From contig JAFIGG010000001.1 of NCBI GenBank assembly GCA_020831485.1, forward strand, positions 124,001-188,000: a stretch of 64,000 bases of DNA, given 5' to 3'. Positions 413-28,701 of this stretch are shown here, in pieces; the stretch's first letter is position 1; every line of letters begins with the position of its first letter. The notes below the pieces were generated by a model. That model made no database searches. It was not told where the DNA came from and saw nothing but the letters and a program-made list of their open reading frames with translations. Made by a program: the position numbers and the translations under genes. The stretch is from Opitutales bacterium (lineage in GTDB: Bacteria; Verrucomicrobiota; Verrucomicrobiia; Opitutales; Oceanipulchritudinaceae).

Positions 413-1363
413 TCAATCCTTTCTATTCAGGTCAGGTCCCACAGTGATGCGCATGCTCCAGCCACAGCTTGCACCAGCTTGAATTTTCGTATACCGATCC
501 CATTCGTTCACTGCCAAATCCAGAAGGTCAGGCGCCCCATTAGTGGGCTCGATCGCCACATGATGATAGCCGTTCCAGCCACCCCTGTTAAGCCAGACCC
601 CTAATGTGTCCAACAGCGAACCTTCGAAATCGAACCGAATATAGTCGCCGGTGACATCATTGGTAATTTCAGCAAATCGCTCGCCTTCGCCAAGGCTGGG
701 AGAAAAGCATTTCAAAGCCCGGTCATCCCCCCCGAGGTCCAGGTTGCTCAGGCTGCATGGATCCCCGAGTATCTCGCGAGGCACCCAGTCGCCCCGTTCC
801 GCTTCAAAACCAATTGCAGTATCCACCTGATAGACGCCCTGATGTTTTGGGATGACCAGACGATCCCCGGCCTCAATCCGCATCATTGGATGGAAAGCCC
901 AGAGAAAATCGAAGTCTCCTTCGCCCTTATTTTCGAGTGTGTAGCAGAAATTCAAAACCTGTTCACTCTCAAAGGATACTTCCCTTACCATTCGTAGGGG
1001 TGAGAGTGGAAAACAGACACTCGTAACAATTTTACCAGCGGCGAGCGCATCCCTGTCCAGTTCCCACTTCTCCGTCCAGATCTCGCCATGATCGGTCAAT
1101 TCCATTCCACGATGCCTGCAAGGGGCAATTGAGGGGCAGCACTCATCGGCTCCCGTGCGGGTGCTGTCAGGAAAGGCATCTCCCGTTTGATTTCGAAACA
1201 GCTTGGGCTTCTCGGTTGGCCACCACATCCACTCCCGTCCGGAATGCAGGGATCTAAGGCCGATAACCTTCGCCCCGAGATCTGGAACAACGGTCAGCTC
1301 ACACAATTTCGATGTCAGCTTTGCGCTTTGAAAGCCATCCACTTTACCCAGTGATCCTCTCAT
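413..1363 (-). CDS. Aldose-1-epimerase-like (galactose mutarotase-fold) protein
   Basis: The product of about 316 residues has the beta-sandwich pattern of the aldose-1-epimerase/DUF4432-like superfamily: an early V-x-D-L-G-A-K segment, a WWP stretch, a TGADECCPSI segment, a central FLWAFHPM segment where mutarotases carry a catalytic His, and a late H-H-V-A-I-E-P segment. Such proteins interconvert sugar anomers or are inactive sugar-binding relatives. The start at 1363 is chosen because its ATG overlaps the TGA of the upstream dehydrogenase (ATGA) and is preceded by GGAGG about 7 bases upstream; an in-frame start at 1387 would deepen the overlap without such a site. The next gene starts 3 bases after its stop, so it is an internal gene of the operon. 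The exact sugar is unknown. Confidence 0.75.
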   Translation of the reverse strand: MRGSLGKVDGFQSAKLTSKLCELTVVPDLGAKVIGLRSLHSGREWMWWPTEKPKLFRNQTGDAFPDSTRTGADECCPSIAPCRHRGMELTDHGEIWTEKWELDRDALAAGKIVTSVCFPLSPLRMVREVSFESEQVLNFCYTLENKGEGDFDFLWAFHPMMRIEAGDRLVIPKHQGVYQVDTAIGFEAERGDWVPREILGDPCSLSNLDLGGDDRALKCFSPSLGEGERFAEITNDVTGDYIRFDFEGSLLDTLGVWLNRGGWNGYHHVAIEPTNGAPDLLDLAVNEWDRYTKIQAGASCGWSMRITVGPDLNRKD

Positions 1364-2334
1364 GCCAAGACCTCCGGATTGATGCAACAGCGTAAGGGTT
1401 CTCTCCTGACGGCACGCAGTGCCTCCTCGCCCGCAAGGCGCTGTAAGGTCGGCAGCGCATCTTCACTGAACCAGGCTAGGTGGGGCGAGAGCATGACCCG
1501 GGGTGAACGCCGTATCGGGTGATCGGGCGTCAACGGTTCCTCGGCAAACACATCCAGAGCGGCACCGCCCAATAAACCCTCTTCAAGGGCCTGAACCAGC
1601 GAAAGCGTGTCCACCAGGCCACCACGCGCAGTGTTCACCAGAATCGAACCCTTTTTCATCCGACTGAACTCTGCGGTGCCAATGAAACCGCGGGTTTCAT
1701 CCGTCAGCGGAAGGTGCAATGCAATAATGTCCGATGTTTCAATCAACTGATCCTTGGTGACCGATTGGATTCCCAGGGTTTCGAATTGAGAAGCAGACAG
1801 ATACGGATCGTATGCCACCGACTTCACACCGAAAGCCTGCATCCGTCGATGGACCTCACGCGCAATTCTGCCGAGCCCAGCGGTAGCAAAAACCACTGAC
1901 CGGAGACTTTTCTGCGGCCGGACTATCGGAGAATCGGGCCAGTCACCGGCACGGACGGAATGGGTATAGTGGATCAATTGCCGGCTCAGGGCAAGACACA
2001 TGGCCGCAGTGTGGTCGGCAACTTCCTGGATGCCGTAATCCGGTATATTGCATACGGCAATGCCTTTCGCCTGAGCGGCTTCTACATCGATATTATCGAC
2101 ACCCATGCCATAGCGAATAATAGCCCGACAGCGATCCAGGGACTCAATTACCTTCCGCGTAATCGGCGCGTACTGAACAAGGATGACATCGGGGTCAGCG
2201 AGAACGTTCAGCACTTCTTCCTCAGTCCGGCATTGATACACTTCAAACTTACAGGCTGCCGCTGACAGGATCTTCTTTTCGATCAGAACATCCTGAAAAC
2301 CATGATCGGTTACCACTATTTTCGATTGCACCAT
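1360..2334 (-). CDS. D-isomer-specific 2-hydroxyacid dehydrogenase
   Basis: A 324-residue protein of the D-2-hydroxyacid dehydrogenase family (phosphoglycerate dehydrogenase/CtBP group). An N-terminal substrate half contains YGMGVDNID; a central Rossmann fold has a slightly atypical glycine motif (TAGLGRIA); the catalytic triad is visible as Arg in NTARGG, Glu in FAEEP and His in SPHLAW. These enzymes reduce 2-keto acids, or aldehyde-derived glyoxylate and hydroxypyruvate, with NAD(P)H in the cytoplasm. It begins 9 bases after the GHL6-type gene and overlaps the next gene by ATGA, so it is translationally coupled. In a sugar-acid operon it probably recycles NADH or handles a keto-acid product. 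The substrate cannot be told from sequence. Confidence 0.87.
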   Translation of the reverse strand: MVQSKIVVTDHGFQDVLIEKKILSAAACKFEVYQCRTEEEVLNVLADPDVILVQYAPITRKVIESLDRCRAIIRYGMGVDNIDVEAAQAKGIAVCNIPDYGIQEVADHTAAMCLALSRQLIHYTHSVRAGDWPDSPIVRPQKSLRSVVFATAGLGRIAREVHRRMQAFGVKSVAYDPYLSASQFETLGIQSVTKDQLIETSDIIALHLPLTDETRGFIGTAEFSRMKKGSILVNTARGGLVDTLSLVQALEEGLLGGAALDVFAEEPLTPDHPIRRSPRVMLSPHLAWFSEDALPTLQRLAGEEALRAVRREPLRCCINPEVLA

Positions 2335-2343
2335 TTCAGCTCT

Positions 2344-4377
2344 TTAAGAGTTGTCCTCAAAATAAGCAGCGACTTTCAGCAGCAAGCGCCCGCGCCCATC
2401 CGGCAGACGAAACGCACCGGAATCCGTGGCCTTCAATGCCTCACCACCGAAGCCTTCGGTCACCGTTTCAACCGGGCGATCGAAGGCGATCTCATAGCCT
2501 GCAAAGCTGTGAGCTGTATCGATCACATCAATGTCGAGTGCTTTGCGCTGAGGGATGTAGTGCAGCAGGGTCAGAAGCAGATCATTGCCTTTGCGCCGCG
2601 GTACGATCTGCACGGTCTGAGGCAGGTCGCCGCCCACCAGCGGTTTGCCTATCAAGCGCTCGACACAGCGCACCACTGCTTCGTAGCAAGCCTTGTTGCC
2701 GGTTTGTCGGTACTCGCGAAATACCGGATCGCCAAACCATATAACGCCATCGCCCTCCAGCACCGCCGCGTCGGCTTCCACTTCGGGCCGAGGTGGCGTT
2801 TGAAAGTGGGAGCAGTATTTGACGTCATTGCGCTTGAAATACGGTAGTTTGCGTTCAATCAGGGGGTTCCACTCACCCCCACTAATCACCGGCAGACGCC
2901 CGGGAGCATAGATCACGAAATCCGAGTCGGCCGCCTCCTTCCAGAAACTTTCTTTTGCACTCCAGTAGGAGGGATAGAGCGTAATCGCCTCACCCGGTTC
3001 CAAACCCAGCCAGGACAGTGCCCAATTGCCTTCGCTGTCGTAACCTGATCGATTGGAAATCAATAAGGTTCCACCCTTCTGATGAAAGGTCTGGATCTTA
3101 TCTCTCAGCTTTGGCTCGATCAGGGATGCGTCTGGAAGTATAACCAGCTCCAAACCGGAAAGGTCACTGTCGCCATCAATCATCGCAGCCTCGTAATGAC
3201 TTTCCGCCAGCATCATCAGCACTCCCTCGTCGCTCAAGCTGGAGGCAGCCACGTCCTCGGAAGCAGTCGCCTGGGCAGGCACCACCCCTACCCTGGCTAC
3301 AGGTGCACTGCCTTCGTAGAAGGGTTCCGCCGCTTCGCATTGTTCATAGACTTTACCAATCAGCCGATAGGCTGCTGGTTCCAGACGTCCCCGCGGGGGC
3401 AGTTGATCGCCGACGGAATTGCCGCCACCCAATGCCTGCGATCGGAAGCATTCGAATTCGAGCGCGGGCATGGGTTTGATGCCGCCAAAATCGCCCCACA
3501 TTTTCTGAAACCGTCCGGTCATGCCAATCCATGGATGCTCCTGAAACAACACGCCACGGGCCTGACGCGGAAAATGCTGGTAGCCCCAGAAGCCGGATGG
3601 CAGCGACTCCAGCTCAAAATGCGTCACAAACCGACCCAGGTGCCGCGAGCCCGAGCCTCCGTCGGCGCGCAGGTCATAGTCGGCATTGTAAAACACCGTT
3701 GCCTCGGGATGCTTTTCCCTTACCAGCGGCGTGAAGCGCGAGGCAAAATGCTCCTGTGCTTTGGCAATGAAGCGGCGCTGGGTGGTCGGGTCATCAGCCA
3801 TCAGGCCGTGTTTTTCACGGAAGGCCACCGAAGCTTCGCTCCAACAGGCTTCCTTGTGATAGGTGAAGATATCAAAGAAAATGCCATCCACCGCGTAGTT
3901 GTCCAACACCTCGCGCAGGTGTGCTTCCGTGTAGTCCATGAAATCCGGATGGATCCAGTTATTGAACTTCCAAAGCCCGGGAGCAACGGTCGTGCGATCG
4001 GTCAGGGTTTCCCTATTGGCGAAATTACCGTCTTTTTTCATCTGCCGCCACTGCGGGAAGCGGCGCGCGATGTCCTCTTCCCAGGCCAGAGTTGTGTAGA
4101 TCGGGCAGCGAATCCCCTCCCGGTGCAGCGCCTCGATCATCTCACCCAGCAGGTCGCGACCCTTGAGCGAAGGATGCTGTATGCCGACCTTGGTCGGATA
4201 GTAACACATACCGTGGTGGCATTTTGCAAAAATCGTTACGCTGTTGACGTGGGCTTCCTTAAACGTGCGCGCAAATTCAGCGGCATCGAATTCAGAGCCG
4301 ACATCCGGCAGGTATTCGGAAGTGTGAAAGTCCAGGTGAACCTGGCGCGTGGGCAGTGGTTTTATTTTTAGTTGCAT
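2344..4377 (-). CDS. GHL6-type glycosidase-like protein with beta-galactosidase trimerisation-like domain
   Basis: A 677-residue protein without a signal peptide. The first ~330 residues look like the hypothetical glycosyl hydrolase 6 (GHL6) TIM barrel: an early LDFHTSEYLPDVG strand, FAKCHHGMCYYP, and VDGIFFDIFTYH, whose Asp is a candidate catalytic residue. The middle part (about 350-560) resembles the glutamine-amidotransferase-fold trimerisation domain of GH42-type beta-galactosidases (ARVGVVPAQ, LVILPDASLI, GGTLLISNRSG). The C-terminus is a small beta domain. It would act in the cytoplasm on an imported oligosaccharide, perhaps a fucoside or galactoside. It lies 12 bases after the shell-protein gene and 9 bases before the dehydrogenase. 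Family assignment is by pattern only; activity is unknown. Confidence 0.7.
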   Translation of the reverse strand: MQLKIKPLPTRQVHLDFHTSEYLPDVGSEFDAAEFARTFKEAHVNSVTIFAKCHHGMCYYPTKVGIQHPSLKGRDLLGEMIEALHREGIRCPIYTTLAWEEDIARRFPQWRQMKKDGNFANRETLTDRTTVAPGLWKFNNWIHPDFMDYTEAHLREVLDNYAVDGIFFDIFTYHKEACWSEASVAFREKHGLMADDPTTQRRFIAKAQEHFASRFTPLVREKHPEATVFYNADYDLRADGGSGSRHLGRFVTHFELESLPSGFWGYQHFPRQARGVLFQEHPWIGMTGRFQKMWGDFGGIKPMPALEFECFRSQALGGGNSVGDQLPPRGRLEPAAYRLIGKVYEQCEAAEPFYEGSAPVARVGVVPAQATASEDVAASSLSDEGVLMMLAESHYEAAMIDGDSDLSGLELVILPDASLIEPKLRDKIQTFHQKGGTLLISNRSGYDSEGNWALSWLGLEPGEAITLYPSYWSAKESFWKEAADSDFVIYAPGRLPVISGGEWNPLIERKLPYFKRNDVKYCSHFQTPPRPEVEADAAVLEGDGVIWFGDPVFREYRQTGNKACYEAVVRCVERLIGKPLVGGDLPQTVQIVPRRKGNDLLLTLLHYIPQRKALDIDVIDTAHSFAGYEIAFDRPVETVTEGFGGEALKATDSGAFRLPDGRGRLLLKVAAYFEDNS

Positions 4378-4389
4378 GATTAATTAAAT

Positions 4390-5019
4390 TTATCCTGTGG
4401 TTATCATTTCAATCAGATCAGGGTGCGGGCGGGAAATCACACGGGAATCAATCAATTTGCCACCATGGGCCTCCACGTGGCGGCTTCCGGATTCGATCGC
4501 ATTCGCGACATTCGCCAGAGTTCCCCGAATGAAAATCGACACATACGCAGCGCCGATTTTCTCTTTGCGGACAATGTCTACCTCCGCGGCTTTAACCATT
4601 GCATCAGTGGCATCCAGGACAGAGGCGAGTCCCTGAGTCTCCAGAATTCCGATCGCCTGCCATTCGTGATCCACGATACGCTTATTTGTGCTACTTGTGT
4701 CTTTCATTATTTCCCTATTCTCCGTAATTCCATTGATAGATTGGCGACTCGCGATTACGTGGTCGCTCGAAGGGTCCGGGTTCAGGACCTTGCGTACTGT
4801 AAAATTCTCAAAATGCAGTTTCCCCTCTGCGGACAGCTCTTTGTGTGCGGTTGAGACGGCGGAAGCATCACCTGAAAAGAACAGCGTTATTTCACCTCCC
4901 GAAGTACCCTCGGCAAAGACAAGCTCCAGATCGTGGTTCTTATTCAAGTCATCCACGCACTGCACTGCCGGGGTCAGCCAGGGAGTTTCCACGAACAGCC
5001 AGTTGCGTTCTATTTTCAT
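4390..5019 (-). CDS. Tandem-domain bacterial microcompartment shell protein (BMC-T type)
   Basis: A 209-residue protein. Residues about 119-207 match a canonical BMC shell domain: AIGILETQGLASVLDATDA, then MVKAAEVDIV, KIGAAYVSIFIRG and a terminal ISRPHPDLIEMI. Residues 1-80 look like a second, degenerate copy (LFVETPWLTPAVQCVDDL, then GGEITLFFSGDASAV). Two BMC domains in about 200 residues is the length and layout of trimer-forming BMC-T proteins of the non-permuted (PduT-like) type, though the linker (about 82-118) is long. BMC-T proteins tile pseudohexameric facets of protein-shelled metabolic compartments and often carry pores. Its ATG overlaps the TGA of the lyase gene (ATGA), so lyase and shell protein are translationally coupled. 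No BMC-H or BMC-P gene is in the window; the operon continues past the left edge, where they could lie. Confidence 0.85.
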   Translation of the reverse strand: MKIERNWLFVETPWLTPAVQCVDDLNKNHDLELVFAEGTSGGEITLFFSGDASAVSTAHKELSAEGKLHFENFTVRKVLNPDPSSDHVIASRQSINGITENREIMKDTSSTNKRIVDHEWQAIGILETQGLASVLDATDAMVKAAEVDIVRKEKIGAAYVSIFIRGTLANVANAIESGSRHVEAHGGKLIDSRVISRPHPDLIEMITTG

Positions 5020-6053
5020 TTTTGCAGGCGCGAGAGCACCTCGCGTACAATGCGGTCGACAACATCAGCGTTGGAGGTCCCGTTCGAGCGGTGTTCGTTT
5101 TTAAATTCACGACAGATCTTTGCAGCATTCTCGGCACCGCATTCGGCCAGAAGACAGGCCATAGAACCTGCCACATTTTCCAGGGCCTGCTCCGCACTGG
5201 ATCCCAGCGGTTGCCTCGATTTGCCCATATCAAAGCCGCGCAAACGAACCGCCAGGCGAAAGCCGTCCGGAAAATTCCCCGTCGCAAACATGGCTTCGAT
5301 TAAAGCCAGCATCATGAATTGAATTTGCCGGGCTTCATCGATTTTACCCGCCTTGAAGCGCTCATACAGTTTCAACACAGCTTCGGGAACGACGCCACCG
5401 CTTGCAATCGTACCGCCATCGCAACCCATCAAAAGAGCCGGCAACAGTATCTCTTCCGTGCCAATAAAAACGGTGAAATCGGGGCGTTCGGATTTAATCT
5501 GCGCCAGTGTCGACATCACTCTAGGAAAATCACGACTACTGTCCTTGATGCCTATTATTCGCTCACAATCAGACGCCAGACCGCGCAGAACCGGCAAAGA
5601 AATTTCATTGGCAAACTGAGGGATATTGTAAACGAGAATATCAATCGGGCTGTTTCTGGCCATTTCACGGAAATAGGCATCAATGCCCTCCTGATTGACC
5701 TTGTAATAATAAGGTCCGGTCAGGGATACAGCAACACAGCCCAATTCATGGTAGCGTTGACACGCTTTCAAGCTCAGTTCAACATTGCCTTCCGCAGCTC
5801 CAGCTAGAATCGGAATTCTTCCCCGAACTTCATCAGCAATGATTTCGACCAGACGGAGTCTCTCTTCAAAACTGAGGCGGATAAATTCACCAGTACTGCC
5901 ATTTGGATACAAGCCACTGACTCCCTGGTCGATGAGCCAACGAATCATTCGGCGCAATTCGCGCTCATTAATGCGCCCTTTGTCGTCATAAGGGACCAGA
6001 TTTGGCACATAAATGCCTTTTAGAGGATATTTTTTTTCAGGAGGCATATTCAT
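5016..6053 (-). CDS. DapA/NanA-family Schiff-base lyase with putative C-terminal encapsulation peptide
   Basis: A class I pyruvate-dependent aldolase of the dihydrodipicolinate synthase/N-acetylneuraminate lyase family. The TIM barrel shows GSTGE at 52-56 (carboxylate binding), Tyr142 in VYNIPQ and the Schiff-base Lys170 in GIKDSS. The family normally ends near 300 residues; this protein has 345. After a polar linker (about 319-328) it ends in an amphipathic helix at 329-345 with VVDRIVREVLSRL, the spacing of hydrophobic residues seen in encapsulation peptides that target enzymes to microcompartments. It is coupled by ATGA to a BMC shell gene, which supports that reading. The start at 6053 follows the upstream stop by one base; a TTG at 6083 is less likely. 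Likely substrate, by inference: a 2-keto-3-deoxy sugar acid, giving pyruvate plus an aldehyde. Confidence 0.88.
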   Translation of the reverse strand: MNMPPEKKYPLKGIYVPNLVPYDDKGRINERELRRMIRWLIDQGVSGLYPNGSTGEFIRLSFEERLRLVEIIADEVRGRIPILAGAAEGNVELSLKACQRYHELGCVAVSLTGPYYYKVNQEGIDAYFREMARNSPIDILVYNIPQFANEISLPVLRGLASDCERIIGIKDSSRDFPRVMSTLAQIKSERPDFTVFIGTEEILLPALLMGCDGGTIASGGVVPEAVLKLYERFKAGKIDEARQIQFMMLALIEAMFATGNFPDGFRLAVRLRGFDMGKSRQPLGSSAEQALENVAGSMACLLAECGAENAAKICREFKNEHRSNGTSNADVVDRIVREVLSRLQK

Positions 6054-6054
6054 C

Positions 6055-7341
6055 TTAGGAAGCGGTTTGCAGGTAAGGTTCAACCAATGGCCAGAAATCC
6101 CTGGATCGGAAGGCGTTGATTCTAATTGTCGGGCGTACGCCTACCTTCTGGTGATACCTGCAGGCGGTGTGGAAGGCCGCTTTGGCTCCATGCTCAACAA
6201 TGTCGGGGAAGTTAGTCCAACTGTACAGGCTGGGCAATGGTCCCGGCGTCCCGAGGTGCCCGAACAGGGGCAGGTCAGCCTGGGTATTCGCGAAAAACAG
6301 GTCAGAAGGTTCTGCGTCCGCAAGGGCCGGCATGCCACACCAGGGAGGGCCCCAGAACTGCCAGAAATCGACGAGGTCCTGCAAGCTGGTGGAAAACGAT
6401 TCGCCACCGACTCTTAACTTTGGAAAGGCGCTGCGCAAATCGGTCAGGAAGAGTCGGAGATCTGGCAGCGAATGAATTCCCATGGGACCGATTTGATCCA
6501 TAAACAGGTGGTTGATGCCCCAGCCCTGAATCCGCTCGAGGCGGCTAAACAAAACAGCCTTCCAGGCCGGGTGGTTCGGGTTGATGTAGTACAATGGCTG
6601 TGTTGCACCGGACCAGGTTGCTCCAGGCCACATGCGCCAAGACCCCTTGTCGTCTTTGATGCGTGCGTTTTTTAATTCTGGATAATCTGGCAATCGATCT
6701 GCTGAAACCGCAGCATGATTTAAGTGCAACACCAGTCGCCCTCCTATGTCGTGTATCACATCCCGCAAACGCAGAAGCTCATCCTTGCCTCCTGCTGTGC
6801 TCCATGCGTCGTAATCCGGATAGGTTCCATCATAAGGTCCATCCCAGCCTGGAAGGTAAAATATACTGTCTCTGCCAAAGCCCCTCGCGTCCGCCATGGC
6901 AACGAAATCTGCAATGTCTTTGAACCCATTTACAATCTGACCCCTCGGGGTCGATACATCACAAATATAGCAACGCTTTTCAAGCGAATGAGAAACAAAG
7001 TGTTTGAATTGTTTTCCTATCGCTATGGAAAGCGCGTCCGAATCCAGCCATTCCGAGCTCTGGACGCTCAATGCTTCACCCGAACCATTGCTAAAAACAA
7101 GCATGTCCGCATCCAGCTTTATCGCCAGCTGCTTACAGCTTTCAAAGGCCTCCGGCCCAAACCGGATCAAGCAATAAGGCGTTTTACCGCCTTCGATTGA
7201 CTCCAAAACCAGCAAGGGCATACTCGGCGCATGAAAGCTTACAGCCTGCTCGGTCTGCTCAATGGAAATTTTCCAGGCACCTTGCGACGGCACATGGATC
7301 AAATCCTTATCAGGGACCACGAATGGGGGAAGTTTAAACAT
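6055..7341 (-). CDS. Glycosidase-like TIM-barrel protein (DUF6259-like), first gene of the BMC operon
   Basis: A 428-residue protein with no signal peptide. A small beta-rich N-terminal part is followed, from about residue 140, by a barrel-like region with FYLPGWDGPYDGTYPDYDAW, RLVLHLNHAAVS and INHLFMDQIGPMGIH, reminiscent of alpha-amylase-superfamily or DUF6259-like hypothetical glycosidases; the Asp in FMDQIG and Glu in VGGESF are candidate catalytic residues. I do not recognise an assigned GH family. It is the first gene of the leftward operon, with an 89-bp divergent promoter region to glcD, and its stop lies one base before the lyase start. It is probably a cytoplasmic hydrolase that frees the sugar acid fed to the lyase; that role is inference. 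Confidence 0.65.
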   Translation of the reverse strand: MFKLPPFVVPDKDLIHVPSQGAWKISIEQTEQAVSFHAPSMPLLVLESIEGGKTPYCLIRFGPEAFESCKQLAIKLDADMLVFSNGSGEALSVQSSEWLDSDALSIAIGKQFKHFVSHSLEKRCYICDVSTPRGQIVNGFKDIADFVAMADARGFGRDSIFYLPGWDGPYDGTYPDYDAWSTAGGKDELLRLRDVIHDIGGRLVLHLNHAAVSADRLPDYPELKNARIKDDKGSWRMWPGATWSGATQPLYYINPNHPAWKAVLFSRLERIQGWGINHLFMDQIGPMGIHSLPDLRLFLTDLRSAFPKLRVGGESFSTSLQDLVDFWQFWGPPWCGMPALADAEPSDLFFANTQADLPLFGHLGTPGPLPSLYSWTNFPDIVEHGAKAAFHTACRYHQKVGVRPTIRINAFRSRDFWPLVEPYLQTAS

Positions 7342-7430: not shown

Positions 7431-8807
7431 ATGAATCTAAAAAAATGCCCTGACTTTCTGAGAGCGGATCAGTGCCTGAATGACCGTGAAGACCTGACCA
7501 CTTATGCCTTTGATGGCACCGCTGGAATCCGACAGTTGCCCGCCCTGGTGGTCTTTCCGGAATCGACTGCCGAAGTGGCGGATTGCATTCGATGGGCCCG
7601 GGAATGGGGCCTGAATGTTGTTACCCGGGGTTCGGGCACAGGGCTTGCGGGCGGCAGCGTGCCTGCTGACAGCAATGACAGTCTGGTCCTCTGCCTCAAC
7701 CGAATGAACCGGATCCTGGGCCTGGATGTAAAAAACCTCACTCTCCGCGTGGAGCCAGGGGTGATCACCCAAAAGATCAACGAGCACATTGCTCCGCACG
7801 GGCTGTTCTATCCGCCCGACCCCAGTTCGCAGAAGATTTCAACCATCGGCGGCAATGTCGCCAACAATTCAGGGGGCTTGCGCGGGCTCAAATACGGGGT
7901 GACCCGGGATTACGTGATGGCCCTCGAGGTTGTGCTCGCAAGCGGCGAGATTGTCCGGCTGGGCAATGCCTGCGTCAAGGATGTCGCGGGCTACTCGCTG
8001 AAGGAGCTCTTTATCGGCAGCGAGGGAACTCTGGGCGTAGTTACCGAAATCCTGCTCAAACTCATTCCGGCCCCGGCCGCCAAACAAACCCTGCTCGCAA
8101 CCTACGACTCGATGGAAGCCGCCTCGGCAACGGTCTCCGCGATCATCGCCGCCAGGATCGTTCCCTGCACAATGGAGTTCATCGACCGCTTCACCCTGCA
8201 GAGCGTCGAGGCGTTTGCCAAGCTTGGCCTGCCAACGGATTGCGAGGCCGTGCTGTTGATCGAAACCGACGGCCATCCCCAGGCGGTGCAGGAGGAAGCC
8301 GCAGCCATGACTGACATTGCCAGGGCGCAGGGAGCCCTGCAAATCCAGCTGGCGAGGGACGCCGCGCACGCCGAGCAACTGGCCAGTGCACGCAGGTCGG
8401 CTTTTGCAGCTGTTGCCCGGATCCGGCCCACAACCATTCTCGAAGACATCACAGTGCCGCGCAGTCGGCTGGTTGAAATGGTCCGGTTTGTCCAGGAAAC
8501 GGCACGCCAGTACGACCTCAAAATCGCGACTTTCGGCCATTTTGGTGACGGCAATCTGCACCCGACCATTCTCACCGATGAAAAAGACGAAGCGGAAATG
8601 GAACGCGTCGAACAAGCCCTTGAGGCGCTGTTTCAAAAGACGCTCGAACTGGGCGGCACCATTACTGGCGAACACGGTGTTGGCCTGGCCAAGAAAAAGT
8701 TTCTGCAAAAACAGTTTAACGATTACAGCTACGAGCTGCTCAAGCTGGTGAAGCACTCTGTGGATCCGGACAACCTTTTAAACCCCGGAAAAATCTTCGA
8801 TGTCTGA
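7431..8807 (+). CDS. glcD: Glycolate/lactate oxidase FAD subunit GlcD
   Basis: A 458-residue FAD-linked oxidase of the vanillyl-alcohol-oxidase fold. The PCMH-type FAD domain contains GSGTGLAGGSVP near residue 64 and GGNVANNSGG near 142. The C-terminal domain holds FGHFGDGNLHP and GTITGEHGVG, typical of GlcD and D-lactate dehydrogenases. It oxidises glycolate or D-lactate and passes electrons, with GlcF, to the quinone pool at the membrane. The start ATG at 7431 has no clear ribosome binding site. It overlaps glcF by 8 bases. glcE is absent here, as in many two-gene versions, so glycolate versus lactate specificity is open. It is divergent from the BMC operon, which may supply its 2-hydroxyacid substrate. 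Confidence 0.88.
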   Translation: MNLKKCPDFLRADQCLNDREDLTTYAFDGTAGIRQLPALVVFPESTAEVADCIRWAREWGLNVVTRGSGTGLAGGSVPADSNDSLVLCLNRMNRILGLDVKNLTLRVEPGVITQKINEHIAPHGLFYPPDPSSQKISTIGGNVANNSGGLRGLKYGVTRDYVMALEVVLASGEIVRLGNACVKDVAGYSLKELFIGSEGTLGVVTEILLKLIPAPAAKQTLLATYDSMEAASATVSAIIAARIVPCTMEFIDRFTLQSVEAFAKLGLPTDCEAVLLIETDGHPQAVQEEAAAMTDIARAQGALQIQLARDAAHAEQLASARRSAFAAVARIRPTTILEDITVPRSRLVEMVRFVQETARQYDLKIATFGHFGDGNLHPTILTDEKDEAEMERVEQALEALFQKTLELGGTITGEHGVGLAKKKFLQKQFNDYSYELLKLVKHSVDPDNLLNPGKIFDV

Positions 8808-10095
8808 GCGGCTTAAGAAACTCGACTACTCAGTCCTTCAACAATGCATGCACTGCGGCATGTGCCTGCCAAACTGCCCGACCTACGACACCACTGGCAT
8901 TGAGCGCAACAGTCCGCGGGGTCGTATTTCGCTGATGCGGGCCATCGCTGACGATGAACTGGATGTTTCGAAAAAATTCAGTGATGAAATGTATTATTGC
9001 CTCGGCTGCCTGGCCTGCGTGAGTGCCTGTCCGGCTGGCGTCGACTACGCGCACATGTTCGAGAGCGCGCGGGCCGACATCGAGGATGCCGGTTTGCTCG
9101 ACAACCCGCAGCGGCGGTTCTGGCGCTGGTTCACACTGAAGGTTTTGTTCACCCGGCCAAGACTGCTGCGTATAGCTGGACGCTTCTTGTGGCTTTACCA
9201 GGTTTGCGGTCTGCAGCGGCTGCTGCGCAAGCTCCACTTCCTGGGCCTCATGCCGAAACGCCTGCGCGAACTCGAGCGCCAGACGCCATCCGTGCAGTCC
9301 CGATTCTCGCACCAGCTCATCGCCGAATGGGAACACCCGCAGGTTGAGGACAAGCCGCGTTACCGCGTCGGCCTTCTTACCGGCTGCGTCCAGGACCTCG
9401 CTTTCAGCGATATCAACCGCGACACAGCCGATGTATTGCTGGCCAACCACTGCAGCGTGTTCACCCCCAAAGCCCAAGGCTGCTGCGGATCCCTGCACGG
9501 ACACAACGGTGCACCCGATTTGGCTAAAACCCTGGCGCGCCGCCTGATCGATCAATTCCCGCTCGAAGAGCTCGACGCCATCATCTCCAATGCCGGCGGC
9601 TGCGGCAGCCATCTCAAGCATTTTGCCCGCTTGCTGGCGGACGATCCGGCCTATGCAGAACGCGCCCGACAATGGGATCAAAAGCTCAGGGACATTCACG
9701 AGTGGCTGATTGAGATCGGCCTTGCGCCATTCCCAACCCAAAAGGAAACCCTCTCCGCAACCTACCACCCGTCCTGCCATCTGCACCACGGTCAGGGCAT
9801 TCAGAAACAACCCCTTGAGCTTTTGCGCCAGGTCCCCGGGCTGAAGCTGATTCCATTAAAGGAAGCCGACTGGTGCTGCGGCAGCGCCGGCATCTACAAC
9901 ATCACTCAACCCAAACAGGCCGAACTCCTCCAGCAGCGCAAGGCATCCCATATCCGCGCCACAGGCGCCCAGGTAGTATTGACTTCCAACCCCGGCTGCC
10001 ACCTCCAGCTGCAGAATGCAACGGATGCAAAACAACCTGAGTGGAAGGTGATGCACCCAGTTTCACTGATCGCCCGAGCTTACCGACATTCCTAA
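8800..10095 (+). CDS. glcF: Glycolate oxidase iron-sulfur subunit GlcF
   Basis: A 431-residue iron-sulfur protein. Two ferredoxin-like 4Fe-4S motifs lie near the N-terminus (CMHCGMCLPNCP and CLGCLACVSACP). They are followed by two CCG domains of the heterodisulfide-reductase/GlcF type (TGCVQDLAFS with GCCGSLHGHNG, then SCHLHHGQGI with WCCGSAGIYN). It takes electrons from the FAD subunit GlcD and passes them to quinone. The ATG at 8800 overlaps the glcD stop, so the two are co-translated. The length is close to the E. coli protein (about 407), with a short insertion in the middle. The gene ends without a visible terminator, convergent with kbl. Confidence 0.9.
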   Translation: MSERLKKLDYSVLQQCMHCGMCLPNCPTYDTTGIERNSPRGRISLMRAIADDELDVSKKFSDEMYYCLGCLACVSACPAGVDYAHMFESARADIEDAGLLDNPQRRFWRWFTLKVLFTRPRLLRIAGRFLWLYQVCGLQRLLRKLHFLGLMPKRLRELERQTPSVQSRFSHQLIAEWEHPQVEDKPRYRVGLLTGCVQDLAFSDINRDTADVLLANHCSVFTPKAQGCCGSLHGHNGAPDLAKTLARRLIDQFPLEELDAIISNAGGCGSHLKHFARLLADDPAYAERARQWDQKLRDIHEWLIEIGLAPFPTQKETLSATYHPSCHLHHGQGIQKQPLELLRQVPGLKLIPLKEADWCCGSAGIYNITQPKQAELLQQRKASHIRATGAQVVLTSNPGCHLQLQNATDAKQPEWKVMHPVSLIARAYRHS

Positions 10096-10221: not shown

Positions 10222-11424
10222 CTACTCCACCAACCCAAGCGCTTCTTTCACCTCCGCAAAAGCCGCCAAGGCTAAATCCAGATCCTCACGGCTGTGGGCG
10301 GCGGAAACTTGGGTGCGGATGCGGGCAAGTCCCTTGGGAACCACCGGATAGAAAAAGCCGACCACGTAAACACCTTTTTCCAGCATGCGGGAAGCAAACT
10401 TCTGGGCGAGCTTGGCGTCGCCAAGCATGATAGGCACAATCGGGTGTTCGCCCGGCAGGACCTCAAGGCCAACCTCCTCAAGACCTCGGCGATAATAAGC
10501 GGTGTTGGCCTGAAGGCGGTCCCGCAGGTCGGTCGACGCTTTCAAAAGTTCGATAACTTTCAAGGAAGCCGCTACAATCGGAGGTGCCAAAGTATTGGAA
10601 AACAAATAGGGCCGCGAACGCTGCCGCAACAGGTCGATAATCTCTTTCCTCCCTGTCGCGAAGCCTCCGGATGCGCCGCCAAGGGCTTTGCCAAGAGTTC
10701 CGGTAATGATGTCGACCCGGCCAAGCACATCACAATGCTCATGGGTGCCACGGCCCCTTCTACCCATGAATCCGGCACCATGGCAATCGTCGATCATCAC
10801 CAGCGCTCCGTAACGCTCCGCGAGGTCACAAATGCCTTTGAGGTCGGCGATAGTTCCATCCATCGAAAATACCGCATCGGTCGCAATGAGTTTAAAGCGC
10901 GCACCGTTGGCCTCTGCTTCCTTTAATTTCGCCTCAAGATCCTCAAGGTCATTGTTGCGGTAACGGTAGCGCTGGGCCTTGCACAGGCGAATGCCATCGA
11001 TAATGCTGGCATGATTAAGAGCATCGCTGATCACGGCATCCTCGTTGCTCAGCAGGACTTCAAACAAGCCGCCGTTTGCATCGAAACAAGATGGGTAAAG
11101 GATTGTCTCCTCCGTCTCGAAGAAGGCCGACAGTGCTGCCTCCAAATCCTTATGCTGTTGCTGCGTACCACAGATAAAGCGTACACTCGCCATGCCGAAC
11201 CCATACTTCTCCAAAGCTTCACTTGCAGCTGCAAGAACACTGGGATGATTCGCCAGGCCCAGATAATTGTTCGCACAAAGGTTCAGCACCGAGCGTCCAT
11301 CGGCAAGCGCAACGCGGGCATCCTGTGGCGTCGTGATCGCATGCTCATTCTTATGCAGCCCCGCACCGCGGATCGCATCCAATTCCCCTGACAAATAATT
11401 TCTAAAGTCCTCGTTCATATTCAT
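10222..11424 (-). CDS. kbl: 2-amino-3-ketobutyrate CoA ligase (glycine C-acetyltransferase)
   Basis: A 400-residue fold-type I PLP enzyme of the alpha-oxoamine synthase family, close in pattern to E. coli Kbl (398). Visible marks: [13 protein letters not shown] near residue 49, [11 protein letters not shown] with the PLP-contact Asp and His near 212-215, and the Schiff-base Lys246 in [10 protein letters not shown]. It cleaves 2-amino-3-ketobutyrate with CoA to glycine and acetyl-CoA in the cytoplasm. It lies downstream of tdh (83-bp gap containing short CACAGCC repeats), the usual threonine-degradation pair. An AGAGG site precedes two alternative ATGs at 11424 and 11418. It is unusual that the pair follows glycosidase and epimerase genes in one orientation. 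Confidence 0.93.
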
Positions 11425-11507
11425 TGCCTCTTTAATCCCGAACGGCTATCTCCCGTCCGCTACAAATCCCAATCCCAGCCCCACAGCCCACAGCCCACAG
11501 AAAACCG

Positions 11508-12542
11508 TCACTCCTGCTCCGCCCAGTCCATGACGATCTTTCCGGACTTGCCGCTTTTCATCAACTCAAAGCCCTTTGCAAAATCGGTATAATGGATGCG
11601 GTGAGTAATCACCGGCGAAATGTTGAGTCCGCCCTGGATCATCACGGTCATCTTGTACCAGGTCTCATACATCTCGCGACCGTATATGCCTTTAAGGGTG
11701 ATCATGTTGAAGATCACTTTGTTCCAGTCGATATCAACCTTGTCCGGCAGGATGCCCAGCAGGGCTATTTTTCCCCCGTGACACATCACGTCAATCATAC
11801 CATCCAGAGCTTGGGCGCTGCCCGACATTTCGAGGCCAACATCAAATCCCTCTTCCATGCCGAGGTCCTTCATAACCTCCTCGAGGCTCTTTTCCCGCGG
11901 ATCGATAGCCAGTGTTGCCCCCATCCTGCGCGCCACATCGAGGCGGTAGGGATTCAGGTCTGTCACCACCACGTGCCGGGCTCCGGCATGACGCACAATC
12001 GCCGCGGCCATGCAACCGATCGGGCCGGCACCGGTAATCAGCACATCCTCGCCCAGCACTTCAAAACTGAGGGCCGTATGAGTTGCATTCCCCAGAGGAT
12101 CAAAACAGGAAAGGATTTCCAGCGGGATGTTCGGATCGGCGTGCCAGACATTGGTTACCGGGATGGACAGGTATTCTGCAAAGCAGCCGTCACGGTTGAC
12201 CCCCACTCCGACCGTATCACGGCAAAGGTGGCGGCGACCAGCGCGGCAGTTGCGGCAGCGACCGCAGACGATGTGACCTTCACCCGACACGATCTCACCC
12301 TTGCGCACATCATGCACATTGCTGCCGAAGTCCACCACCTGGCCAACAAATTCGTGGCCGATGGTCATCGGCGGCTTGATCGTCTGCTGGGCCCAGTCGT
12401 CCCAACTGTCAATGTGCACATCGGTGCCACAAATGGACGTCTTCAGGATCCGGATAAGGACATCGTTGGCTCCCATCTTCGGTTCCGGCACATTGATCAG
12501 TTCAAGCCCGGGACCTAGTTTACTTTTAACTATTGCTTTCAA
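11508..12542 (-). CDS. tdh: L-threonine 3-dehydrogenase
   Basis: A 344-residue zinc-dependent medium-chain dehydrogenase. Catalytic zinc ligands Cys38, His63 and Glu64 are visible (SICGTD; IGHEFVG), and the structural zinc is bound by Cys93, 96, 99 and 107. The Rossmann glycine motif is GAGPIGCMA. Length and motifs match E. coli Tdh (341). It oxidises L-threonine to 2-amino-3-ketobutyrate, the substrate of the downstream kbl product. The start is a TTG at 12542, supported by the conserved MKAI beginning and an AAAGAG upstream; no suitable ATG lies nearby. It begins 6 bases after the GH105-type gene. Related sugar-alcohol dehydrogenases exist, so another substrate is possible, but the kbl pairing favours threonine. 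Confidence 0.9.
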
Positions 12543-17321: not shown

Positions 17322-17405
17322 AATAACATTATTTAAACACCGACAAACATTAATCTTGCATCCAATCTTTTACGGGTGTTACACATAGACTCGCCCGCCT
17401 TAGCT

Positions 17406-18542
17406 ATGAAAATTGACAGCTTGAAAATCGCCCATCTCGGAGGACCTTCAACATGCCTAAAAATTGAAACCGACACAGGGGTCTATGGCCTTGGAGAGCC
17501 ATCCGTTGAAACTTCGGTGGAAAGCGTGATCAAACTCGTTCAGTTAATTGGCGAGGAGTACCTGATCGGAAAGGATCCCTTCGAAATAGAAAAGCACCGT
17601 CGCACAATCCAGGATGCCCTTTGGTACCATGCGGATTTCACTGCCCGCGCCGTGCTGACCGGTATTGAAAACGCGCTGCTGGACCTTAAGGCACGCAGCC
17701 TTAACATCCCGCTTTATGAGCTTCTGGGAGGCGCGGTTCGCGACGAGGTACGCATTTACAAATGGATAGGAGCAGCTGATAGATCCAACCTTGTGGAACA
17801 GGCCACAGCCCGTGTGTCCGAAGGCATCAAAGCCATAAAGTTCAGCCCAACAAGCAACCGGCCGGCCCGTTTCCCCCAGGTTATTGACGAGGTCGAAGCA
17901 ATTGTATCCAGCGTGCGAAATGCAATTGGGCCAGCGGTCGACATTATGCTCGATCCTGCTTCCCGCTGGAAACTATCCGAAGCACGCGAGATACTGAAGG
18001 TCATTGAGCCCTACCGAATCCTTTTCGCCGAAGACTTCATTGCCGAGCTGGATGTTCTGAGCCAGGAAAAGCTTTCAGCGGCCACCTCCACACCCATCGC
18101 ACTGGGCGACCGCCTGATTGGTTTCAAGGACTTCGGACCACTGATAGCCCGTCAGGCAGTCGGCGTCATTCAGCCGGATATTTGCCATTCGGGCGGCCTT
18201 TTAGAACTCAAGGCGATCGCTCGCTATGCCGAACAGTTTGGCATCCGGGTCGCTCCCCACAATCCACAAGGCATCATCGCGACCGCGACAGCGATCCACT
18301 TCGACCTTACCGTTCCGAATTTCCTGATACAGGAAATCGCAGGAAGTGACTTTTTTGGGGCGTGGTCCAACAAGGATTTGATGCGAGCTCCGGAATATCA
18401 GATAAGTGAGGGCCACATCGCTCGACCCAGCCTTCCCGGAATCGGAGTTGAGGTGTCCGATGTCGTTTTCTCAGAGGACTTCAAGGCTCCACCGGCTCCC
18501 CGCTTCTGGGATCGAGACGACTTTCATGTTCCCGAATGGTAA
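17406..18542 (+). CDS. Mandelate racemase/muconate lactonizing enzyme family dehydratase
   Basis: A 378-residue enolase-superfamily protein. An N-terminal capping domain is followed by a barrel with GIKAIKFSP (the second-strand K-x-S in place of K-x-K, similar to galactonate-dehydratase relatives), metal ligands Asp in IMLDPAS, Glu in FAEDF and Asp in LGDR, and a His in APHNPQG. Members dehydrate sugar acids to 2-keto-3-deoxy acids. The His of the D-x-H motif used by D-galactonate dehydratase is not seen, so the substrate is unclear. ATG 17406 (MKIDSLK) is preferred to a GTG at 17376. It overlaps the transporter fusion gene by 7 bases, so dehydratase and importer are one operon. Confidence 0.82.
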   Translation: MKIDSLKIAHLGGPSTCLKIETDTGVYGLGEPSVETSVESVIKLVQLIGEEYLIGKDPFEIEKHRRTIQDALWYHADFTARAVLTGIENALLDLKARSLNIPLYELLGGAVRDEVRIYKWIGAADRSNLVEQATARVSEGIKAIKFSPTSNRPARFPQVIDEVEAIVSSVRNAIGPAVDIMLDPASRWKLSEAREILKVIEPYRILFAEDFIAELDVLSQEKLSAATSTPIALGDRLIGFKDFGPLIARQAVGVIQPDICHSGGLLELKAIARYAEQFGIRVAPHNPQGIIATATAIHFDLTVPNFLIQEIAGSDFFGAWSNKDLMRAPEYQISEGHIARPSLPGIGVEVSDVVFSEDFKAPPAPRFWDRDDFHVPEW

Positions 18543-27307: not shown

Positions 27308-28618
27308 TCATTTCCATGCCGATCCATTTTCAAAATCAAAACGGGCCAATGACTCCGGTTTCATTTCGATGCTGAAACCCGGTGCCCGGGGCAGCTGGTA
27401 ACAGCCCTTGTGAATCCGCACTGGGTCGACAAAGTGCTCGTGCAGGTGGTCGACGTATTCAAGCATGCGACCTTCGCGTTTTCCGCTGATGGCGACGAAG
27501 TCGAGCATCGAAAGGTGCTGGACGTATTCACACAGGCCGACACCCCCCGCGTGTGGACAAACGGGCACTCCGTATTTGGCTGCCAGCAGAAGGATGGCCA
27601 GGTTTTCATTCAAACCACCAACCCGGCAGGCATCGATTTGACAAACCCCCATAGCCTCCGCCTGCAGAAACTGCTTGAACAGGATGCGGTTGGCACAGTG
27701 TTCGCCGGTGGCCACCTTTATTGGCTGCACGGCCCTGGCGATCTCCGCATGCCCGAGGACATCGTCCGGGTGCGTGGGCTCCTCAATCCAAAGGGGATTG
27801 TAGACAGCCAGTTCCCGCATGTTGGCAATGGCTTCCGCTACTTCCCACTTCTGGTTGGCATCCATCATCAGGATTCTGTCGGCTCCAATCTCGGCGCGAA
27901 TCAACTGCGCCCGCCGAAGGTCATCCTGCAAATCCGCACCCACCTTCATTTTGAAACCGGTCCAGCCGTCTGATACGGCTTCCCGGCAGAGTTGCTGAAT
28001 GCGCTCATCGCTGTAACCCAGCCAGCCCACCGAGGTGGTATAAGCCGGATAGCCCGATCGCTCAAGCACCTCAATTCTTACGGCTTTTCCCGCTTCAGCG
28101 CTTTCGAGCAGCTCCAGGGCTTCGGCCCGGCTCAAGGCGTTGCCCAGGTAACTCAGGTCCACACATTTAAGGATTTGTTCCGGACGCATTTCCGCCACAA
28201 GGCGCCACAGCGGCTTGCCTTCAACCTTTGCATACAAGTCCCAGATGGCATTGATCAGAGCACCCAAGGCCATGTGCACGACCCCTTTATCCGGTCCCAG
28301 CCAACGGATCTGGCTGTCACCGTTCAAGTGCTTCCAGAAGCCACCAAAATCCTCCGTAATCGCGGCCAGTTCCATACCAACAATCTGGGCTGAAAACTGC
28401 CTCAGGGCCGCACAACAAAGGTCGTTGCCACGTCCAATTGTGAAGGCCAATCCATGCCCCTGACAGGCCGAATCGTCTGTTTTGAGGATGAGGTAAGCGG
28501 CCGAATAATCCGGATCCTTGTTCATCGCATCCGACCCGTGTGCGCCCAGGCTCGTGGGAAAGCGGATGTCACGCACCTTGTAGTTGCGAATAGTGATGCC
28601 CTTTCCACGCATTGCCAT
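27308..28618 (-). CDS. L-fuconate dehydratase (enolase superfamily)
   Basis: A protein of about 436 residues that matches the L-fuconate dehydratase family along its length: GHGLAFTIGRGND early, TTSVGWLGYSDE, the K-x-K base in GFKMKVG, metal ligands in MMDANQKW, WIEEPTHPDD and VATGEHC, and the catalytic His in CPHAGGVGLCEYVQHLSM. It dehydrates L-fuconate to 2-keto-3-deoxy-L-fuconate in the cytoplasm, feeding a lyase or dehydrogenase route to pyruvate plus lactaldehyde or lactate. ATGs at 28618 and 28612 are both possible; an upstream TTG (28657) is unlikely. It is divergent from the hydroxyacid dehydrogenase gene and shares its 83-bp promoter region. Confidence 0.88.
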   Translation of the reverse strand: MAMRGKGITIRNYKVRDIRFPTSLGAHGSDAMNKDPDYSAAYLILKTDDSACQGHGLAFTIGRGNDLCCAALRQFSAQIVGMELAAITEDFGGFWKHLNGDSQIRWLGPDKGVVHMALGALINAIWDLYAKVEGKPLWRLVAEMRPEQILKCVDLSYLGNALSRAEALELLESAEAGKAVRIEVLERSGYPAYTTSVGWLGYSDERIQQLCREAVSDGWTGFKMKVGADLQDDLRRAQLIRAEIGADRILMMDANQKWEVAEAIANMRELAVYNPLWIEEPTHPDDVLGHAEIARAVQPIKVATGEHCANRILFKQFLQAEAMGVCQIDACRVGGLNENLAILLLAAKYGVPVCPHAGGVGLCEYVQHLSMLDFVAISGKREGRMLEYVDHLHEHFVDPVRIHKGCYQLPRAPGFSIEMKPESLARFDFENGSAWK

Positions 28619-28701
28619 CTCAACAGACACAAAAGTTGACCCACACAGCAAAGGCAAACACTATCATACACAACAAGCTCAAAACTTTAAATCTGCGTAT
28701 T

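Follow-up and report, generated by a model that had tools for sequence, protein, structure and literature searches.

We describe a two-gene unit that couples a class I (Schiff-base) lyase, bearing a putative C-terminal encapsulation peptide, to a tandem-domain microcompartment shell protein (BMC-T), in a 64,000-nucleotide stretch of an Opitutales genome (the window; positions 124001–188000 of contig C9 in an assembly of 3.86 Mb, 96.8% complete). The pair is real and probably functional. With a probability of roughly two in three, we read it as a satellite module of the Planctomycetes/Verrucomicrobia (PVM) bacterial microcompartment (BMC), in which the encapsulated lyase would act as a 2-keto-3-deoxy-L-fuconate or 2-keto-3-deoxy-L-rhamnonate (KDF/KDR) aldolase that releases lactaldehyde inside the shell.

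A lyase and a BMC-T shell protein overlap in one operon

Both genes lie on the minus strand, and an ATGA common to the lyase stop (345 aa, 5016..6053) and the BMC-T start (209 aa, 4390..5019) joins them; coordinates, strand and sequence all confirm the overlap proposed in a first-pass annotation of this DNA. The shell protein matches PF00936 at 105.5 bits in two stretches, with the canonical domain at residues 121–197, and a genome-level search scored the two domains at 77.1 and 30.8 bits. An AlphaFold2 monomer model (pLDDT 86, pTM 0.52) contains two successive BMC folds with a disordered stretch between them, their relative placement being unsure because of the pTM. In Foldseek, the model matched PduT-type BMC-T structures and synthetic tandem BMC proteins, and its individual domains matched BMC-H. 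Tandem PF00936 domains, a hallmark of BMC-T, are therefore present, as the annotation had suggested. The pore loop of domain 2 (KEKIGAAY) is nearly invariant in the family, with K152, E153, K154, I155 and G156 invariant (n = 33), and differs from the loops of the BMC-H proteins at the main BMC locus of the genome (QVGSA, QIGGG and KVGSG, assigned by eye). BMC-T could plausibly form a pore reserved for a six-carbon acid.

The lyase matches PF00701 at 204 bits over residues 11–295, and the roughly 50 residues left over bear out the excess length noted earlier. K170, Y142 and G52-S53-x-G55-E56 are invariant across 67 homologues; with its PF00701 fold, Schiff-base lysine and catalytic tyrosine, the protein belongs to the DHDPS/NAL superfamily. 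In the PDB, its closest matches by sequence are NanA and DapA. Assignment as the DapA of lysine biosynthesis or as NanA was nevertheless rejected, since every NCBIfam equivalog cut-off was missed (DapA TIGR00674, 157 bits against 206; NanA TIGR00683, 153.5 against 382, and NF003164, 169.8 against 281). In addition, an invariant Phe147 occupies what we take to be the Arg position after YNxP in DapA (YNxPxR). In the lyase tree, the window enzyme has a long branch (1.6). The best other DapA-family protein of this genome (L148) ends without a tag; for two further DapA-family matches the longest open reading frame of the locus was taken, and the PF00701 protein may be a different one.

Directly upstream of the lyase, the same operon encodes a 428-aa protein (6055..7341, minus strand) that has no Pfam or PDB sequence match. 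Beyond BMC-T, on the same strand, the run continues with a GHL6-type putative glycoside hydrolase 12 bp downstream (2344..4377; PF14871, 118 bits), a D-2-hydroxyacid dehydrogenase (1360..2334; PF02826/PF00389) and an unassigned protein (413..1387), without a Pfam match, that looks aldose-epimerase-like by eye only, an unverified impression. The run also includes an SDR and an SMP-30 lactonase, together with several large proteins that are heparinase-like by eye and have no Pfam match where tested. Left of the window on C9, four tandem large proteins of about 870–890 aa (L010:4706-16709), three of them closely alike, share the orientation of the lyase operon; they too are heparinase-like by eye, and the two that were checked gave no Pfam match. 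The D-2-hydroxyacid dehydrogenase recurs at distant loci (window 1360-2334; L082:7958-8938; L092:251-1303), directly preceding the lyase in L082 and L092, and the ACI type of BMC also carries such an enzyme (PMC8217296). Adjoining the operon is a divergent GlcD/GlcF-like pair of the glycolate/lactate dehydrogenase type (7431-10095), which perhaps oxidizes lactate downstream of the compartment; similar-looking FAD-oxidase and Fe–S genes also precede the lyase in a Latescibacterota locus (L131). Further along (10222-12542), glycine C-acetyltransferase and L-threonine 3-dehydrogenase, both above NCBIfam cut-offs, form an ordinary threonine degradation pair.

The C-terminal helix resembles cargo tags

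The first-pass annotation had read lyase residues 329–345 (ADVVDRIVREVLSRLQK; 5019..5069, minus strand) as an amphipathic helix and apparent encapsulation peptide. In our model a terminal helix spans residues 328–344 (pLDDT 81–90) as a separate element behind a low-confidence linker (pLDDT 67). Across the 67 homologues, alignment entropy was 0.97 bits in the core, 3.28 in the linker and 1.98 in the tag columns (331–343), where I335, V336 and V339 are nearly fixed. Because the tag columns are conserved against a variable linker, we rejected a chance extension or mis-called tail. Amphipathicity alone is weak evidence for a tag, because shuffled versions of the window tag reach its hydrophobic moment (0.72) with P = 0.03.

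The tag was kept in 70 of 77 distinct lyases, 65 by a strict pattern and five as variants recognized by eye. The seven tagless lyases are the outgroup L063, L062, the apparently truncated L095 and L130, and a small clade of L069, L143 and L088. L069 is the sole tagless lyase with an adjacent BMC-T, so the helix is seldom lost where the shell gene is retained (1 of 39 adjacent pairs). A copy of L062 (L125), likewise tagless, lies in G605, the one related genome with neither PF03319 nor BMC-T matches.

A position-specific score matrix built from 64 tails of other genomes ranked the lyase first among the window-genome proteins tested (24.5) and residues 4–17 of the aldehyde dehydrogenase (AldDH) second (13.5), against a null with mean −5.4 and s.d. 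6.8 over 55 open reading frames that include the lyase itself. An SDR N-terminal helix, presumably a false positive, came third, and the C terminus of the class II aldolase fourth (6.7). Elsewhere, AldDH tags of three genomes scored 9.4–18.8 and a single PduL tag reached 19.3, whereas scores were poor for the class II aldolase tags of two Latescibacterota. By inspection, the AldDH of the main BMC locus starts with a tag-like MDSQQIRSIVEEVLNQLQ and its class II aldolase ends with a tag-like ALVQEITDTILKQLQSN. The lyase thus carries a short terminal amphipathic helix, behind a variable linker, that resembles co-encoded cargo tags. That the helix is conserved and looks like the AldDH tag supports the encapsulation-peptide reading. 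The lyase is very probably cargo of a PVM shell.

A PVM-type locus on another contig

A genome-wide search placed three PF03319 (BMC-P) and three PF00936 (BMC-H) matches on a second contig, C129, in the order lactate/malate dehydrogenase, class II aldolase, BMC-P, BMC-P, AldDH, BMC-P, BMC-H, AckA, BMC-H, BMC-H, PduL, with PF00596, PF00171, PF06130, PF00871 and PF00056/PF02866 all above cut-off. The source genome therefore holds the BMC-P triplet, BMC-H, class II aldolase, AldDH, PduL, AckA and dehydrogenase of a PVM compartment; it departs from the PVM type as described, which has no BMC-T, by the two-domain BMC-T in the window. Functional metabolosomes without BMC-T are known (Axen 2014, citing the PVM paper). 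The first-pass annotation was right to expect other shell genes in this genome and wrong about where: the 18 kb left of the window contain no recognizable BMC gene. Its statement that a class II aldolase serves PVM compartments also holds, this being the PVM signature enzyme in BMC surveys (PMC4207490, PMC8217296), but the lyase is no substitute for it, since the source genome has both. Given the complete PVM-type locus on another contig, we take the lyase/BMC-T pair to be a satellite module. It has one shell pfam, is contiguous and accompanies a complete BMC locus elsewhere, as in the satellite-locus test of Axen 2014, in whose terms a locus with a cargo enzyme is 'satellite-like'.

The pair and its tag recur well beyond this genome. 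Searching 223 genomes from the order for BMC-T recovered long relatives, with the lyase as the neighbouring gene in nine; a BMC-T search of viral contigs gave no match. Scanning genome contigs with the lyase alignment yielded 80 loci, or the 77 distinct lyases (outgroup included) once duplicates were removed. Of these, 39 have a BMC gene on the same strand no more than 300 bp away, just downstream in all but one; their sources are Verrucomicrobiota, Latescibacterota (L131, L132) and metagenome-assembled genomes (MAGs) that carry the labels Omnitrophota (L092) and Ignavibacteriae (L082). Such a neighbour accompanies only about half of the tagged lyases. A Planctomycetota locus (L133) has BMC-T 270 bp from the lyase on the opposite strand. 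The lyase tail of a Hydrogenedentota-labelled locus (L107) is the same as that of an Opitutales locus (L111), and the phylum label looks like a binning problem. Among 31 genomes searched for BMC-T, picked mainly because none lay beside their lyase, about 11 encode a close full-length BMC-T and about seven a more distant one, the others having BMC-H only or none. BMC-T is therefore not obligatory, and we dropped the idea of an obligate lyase partner.

PF03319 was found in 46 of 49 lyase-bearing genomes, nearly always in three copies, whereas 82 of the 223 genomes sampled from the order had BMC matches (Fisher p ~4e-14, uncorrected for relatedness and with differing match definitions). The three exceptions are G605, whose lyase is tagless; G598 (L109), which has BMC-T and may be an incompletely recovered MAG; and G570 (L071), where the lyase shares its contig with PduL. 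A class II aldolase match (E ≤ 1e-40) was present in 43 of the 49 lyase genomes, so the lyase is an addition to that enzyme and its replacement by the lyase was rejected. Two Latescibacterota MAGs seemingly without a class II aldolase have a divergent one in the BMC locus, with a tag-like C terminus. The main BMC loci of two Latescibacterota genomes (L144 in G608, L145 in G607) comprise three BMC-P genes, AldDH, AckA and a short class II aldolase whose end is tag-like; no BMC-H was recognized within 16 kb.

Gene neighbourhoods point to fuconate or rhamnonate

In the large clade of the lyase family, the neighbouring genes encode an L-fucono-lactonase-like protein (NF052480, 132 bits, below cut-off), a FucD-like enolase, RhaM (rhamnose mutarotase), an SDR and SSF. 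The sister clade of the window lyase is flanked by L-rhamnonate-dehydratase-like enolases (261–303 bits, below the cut-off of 393), and one of its members (L070) has an L-rhamnose 1-dehydrogenase-like SDR and RhaT beside the lyase. Oxidative fucose breakdown ends in KDF, which an aldolase splits to pyruvate and L-lactaldehyde (PMC11199699). Lactaldehyde is the compound handled by PVM compartments (PMC8857213), which have been tied to lactaldehyde from fucose and rhamnose (PMC4207490, PMC8857213). Homologue neighbours, the KDF reaction and PVM lactaldehyde handling together favour a KDF/KDR aldolase. We consider a fuconate/rhamnonate-type substrate likely for the family and, with somewhat less assurance, probable for the window enzyme. 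Several fuconate-type lyases (L048, L106, L109, L113, L120, L121, L124 and L127) also have a CaiB-type CoA transferase beside them, together with one or two hydratases of the MaoC-like kind.

The window operon has no clear fuconate or rhamnonate pathway of its own. A FucD-like, enolase-superfamily dehydratase 21 kb from the lyase (27308..28657, minus strand) resembles the fuconate-dehydratase-like gene beside the lyase/BMC-T pair at L041 (44% identity over 410 aa) and could possibly supply the lyase substrate. RhaM lies on the same contig as the lyase, and no fuconolactonase was found in the source genome with the L041 query.

A proposed satellite aldolase for the PVM organelle

In the mechanism that we propose, the C-terminal helix would carry the lyase into the PVM shell encoded on C129, where it would yield pyruvate and toxic L-lactaldehyde. 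Its substrate would most likely be 2-keto-3-deoxy-L-fuconate or -rhamnonate, with which the oxidative (non-phosphorylating) breakdown of fucose or rhamnose ends. Encapsulated AldDH, PduL and AckA would then convert lactaldehyde through lactyl-CoA and lactyl-phosphate to lactate, the same route presumably serving lactaldehyde from the class II aldolase of the phosphorylating pathway. The co-encoded BMC-T would insert in the same shell, probably as a pore through which the sugar acid enters and pyruvate leaves.

The satellite module and encapsulation could hold while the window enzyme accepts a different 2-keto-3-deoxy acid, such as 2-keto-3-deoxygluconate/galactonate or a pentonate, and releases not lactaldehyde but glyceraldehyde or glycolaldehyde; a KDG-type substrate is the main rival for this family member. 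The GH88 gene and D-galactonate-dehydratase-like enolase (17376-18542) in the window region fit such chemistry, the branch of the window lyase is long, and NCBIfam models, with all best matches below cut-off, cannot separate the subfamilies. The L-rhamnonate-dehydratase-like neighbours of the sister clade, the L-rhamnose dehydrogenase and RhaT genes at L070 and the published tie between PVM compartments and lactaldehyde all point back to KDF/KDR, and we regard a different substrate as unlikely, though more probable than either of the readings that follow.

Those readings question the encapsulation itself or its destination. The helix might be an oligomerization or folding element of the lyase subfamily, BMC-T acting in the shell and the lyase not being cargo. 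Its fairly high model confidence would suit such a role, as would 29 loci whose examined stretch holds a tagged lyase but lacks any BMC gene. This is difficult to reconcile with a helix that is conserved behind a highly variable linker, matches the AldDH tag, is lost in a BMC-free genome and is accompanied by BMC-P genes in nearly all genomes that bear it, and we judge it very improbable. Slightly less probable still is a second microcompartment, separate from the PVM organelle, to which the pair would belong. BMC-T is indeed encoded away from the main locus and its pore sequence is unlike those of the main BMC-H proteins, yet the genome has a single BMC-P set (three copies, all on C129) and BMC-T domain 2 is 38–42% identical to the main-locus BMC-H proteins. 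At L085, moreover, the lyase follows a DeoR gene beside the PduL, BMC-H and AckA of a PVM locus, within 4 kb. We therefore retain the satellite module of the PVM organelle as the preferred reading.

If the satellite reading is true, a second aldolase of unrelated fold feeds the fucose/rhamnose organelle, tying the oxidative route to encapsulation. This would bear on why a cytosol-capable pathway is compartmentalized, on how organelles gain substrates by adding cargo and a pore, and on the consumption of algal fucose and rhamnose. More tentatively, the pair may be a portable two-gene plug-in, an encapsulated aldolase with a matched pore, that re-specifies the sugar route feeding an existing organelle; the PVM compartment would then be a lactaldehyde core served in several phyla by two unrelated aldolases, class II for the phosphorylating and class I for the oxidative route. 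The lyase tag and BMC-T are short parts open to direct testing.

Comparison with known systems

There is precedent for PVM metabolosomes, for satellite loci and for cytosolic KDF aldolases. What appears to be new is a tagged Schiff-base aldolase with BMC-T as a candidate PVM satellite: the literature searched, with partial coverage that leaves an earlier mention possible, yielded no report of this arrangement or of any DapA/DHDPS-family BMC cargo.

Characterized KDF aldolases (FucH) belong to the DHDPS/NAL family. The likeness of the window lyase to them lies in its predicted reaction; they differ in that the literature consulted describes no shell partner or encapsulation tag for them. With NanA, DapA and KDG aldolase the lyase shares the PF00701 fold family and the conserved Schiff-base lysine and tyrosine, but it falls below every NCBIfam equivalog cut-off, has an invariant Phe at the DapA Arg position and carries a C-terminal extension.

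The PVM metabolosome (the Planctomycetes/Verrucomicrobia BMC; Erbilgin 2014), as described in PMC4207490 and PMC8217296, is matched on C129 by the BMC-P triplet, BMC-H, tagged AldDH, C-terminally tagged class II aldolase, AckA, PduL and MDH, and a presumed lactaldehyde intermediate is common to both. For an L-fuconate pathway in microcompartment-bearing Verrucomicrobia, PMC12263773 cites a study of sponge Opitutales (Sizikov 2020). From the described PVM metabolosome the source genome differs in adding a class I (DHDPS-family) aldolase as putative cargo, together with a satellite BMC-T. Satellites of the EUT-module kind (EutABC with an EutL-type BMC-T, in HO, SPU3 and SPU6 BMCs; PMC8217296) follow the same logic, in which a signature enzyme and a BMC-T extend a BMC to another substrate, but differ from the lyase/BMC-T pair in enzyme family, chemistry and host BMC type.
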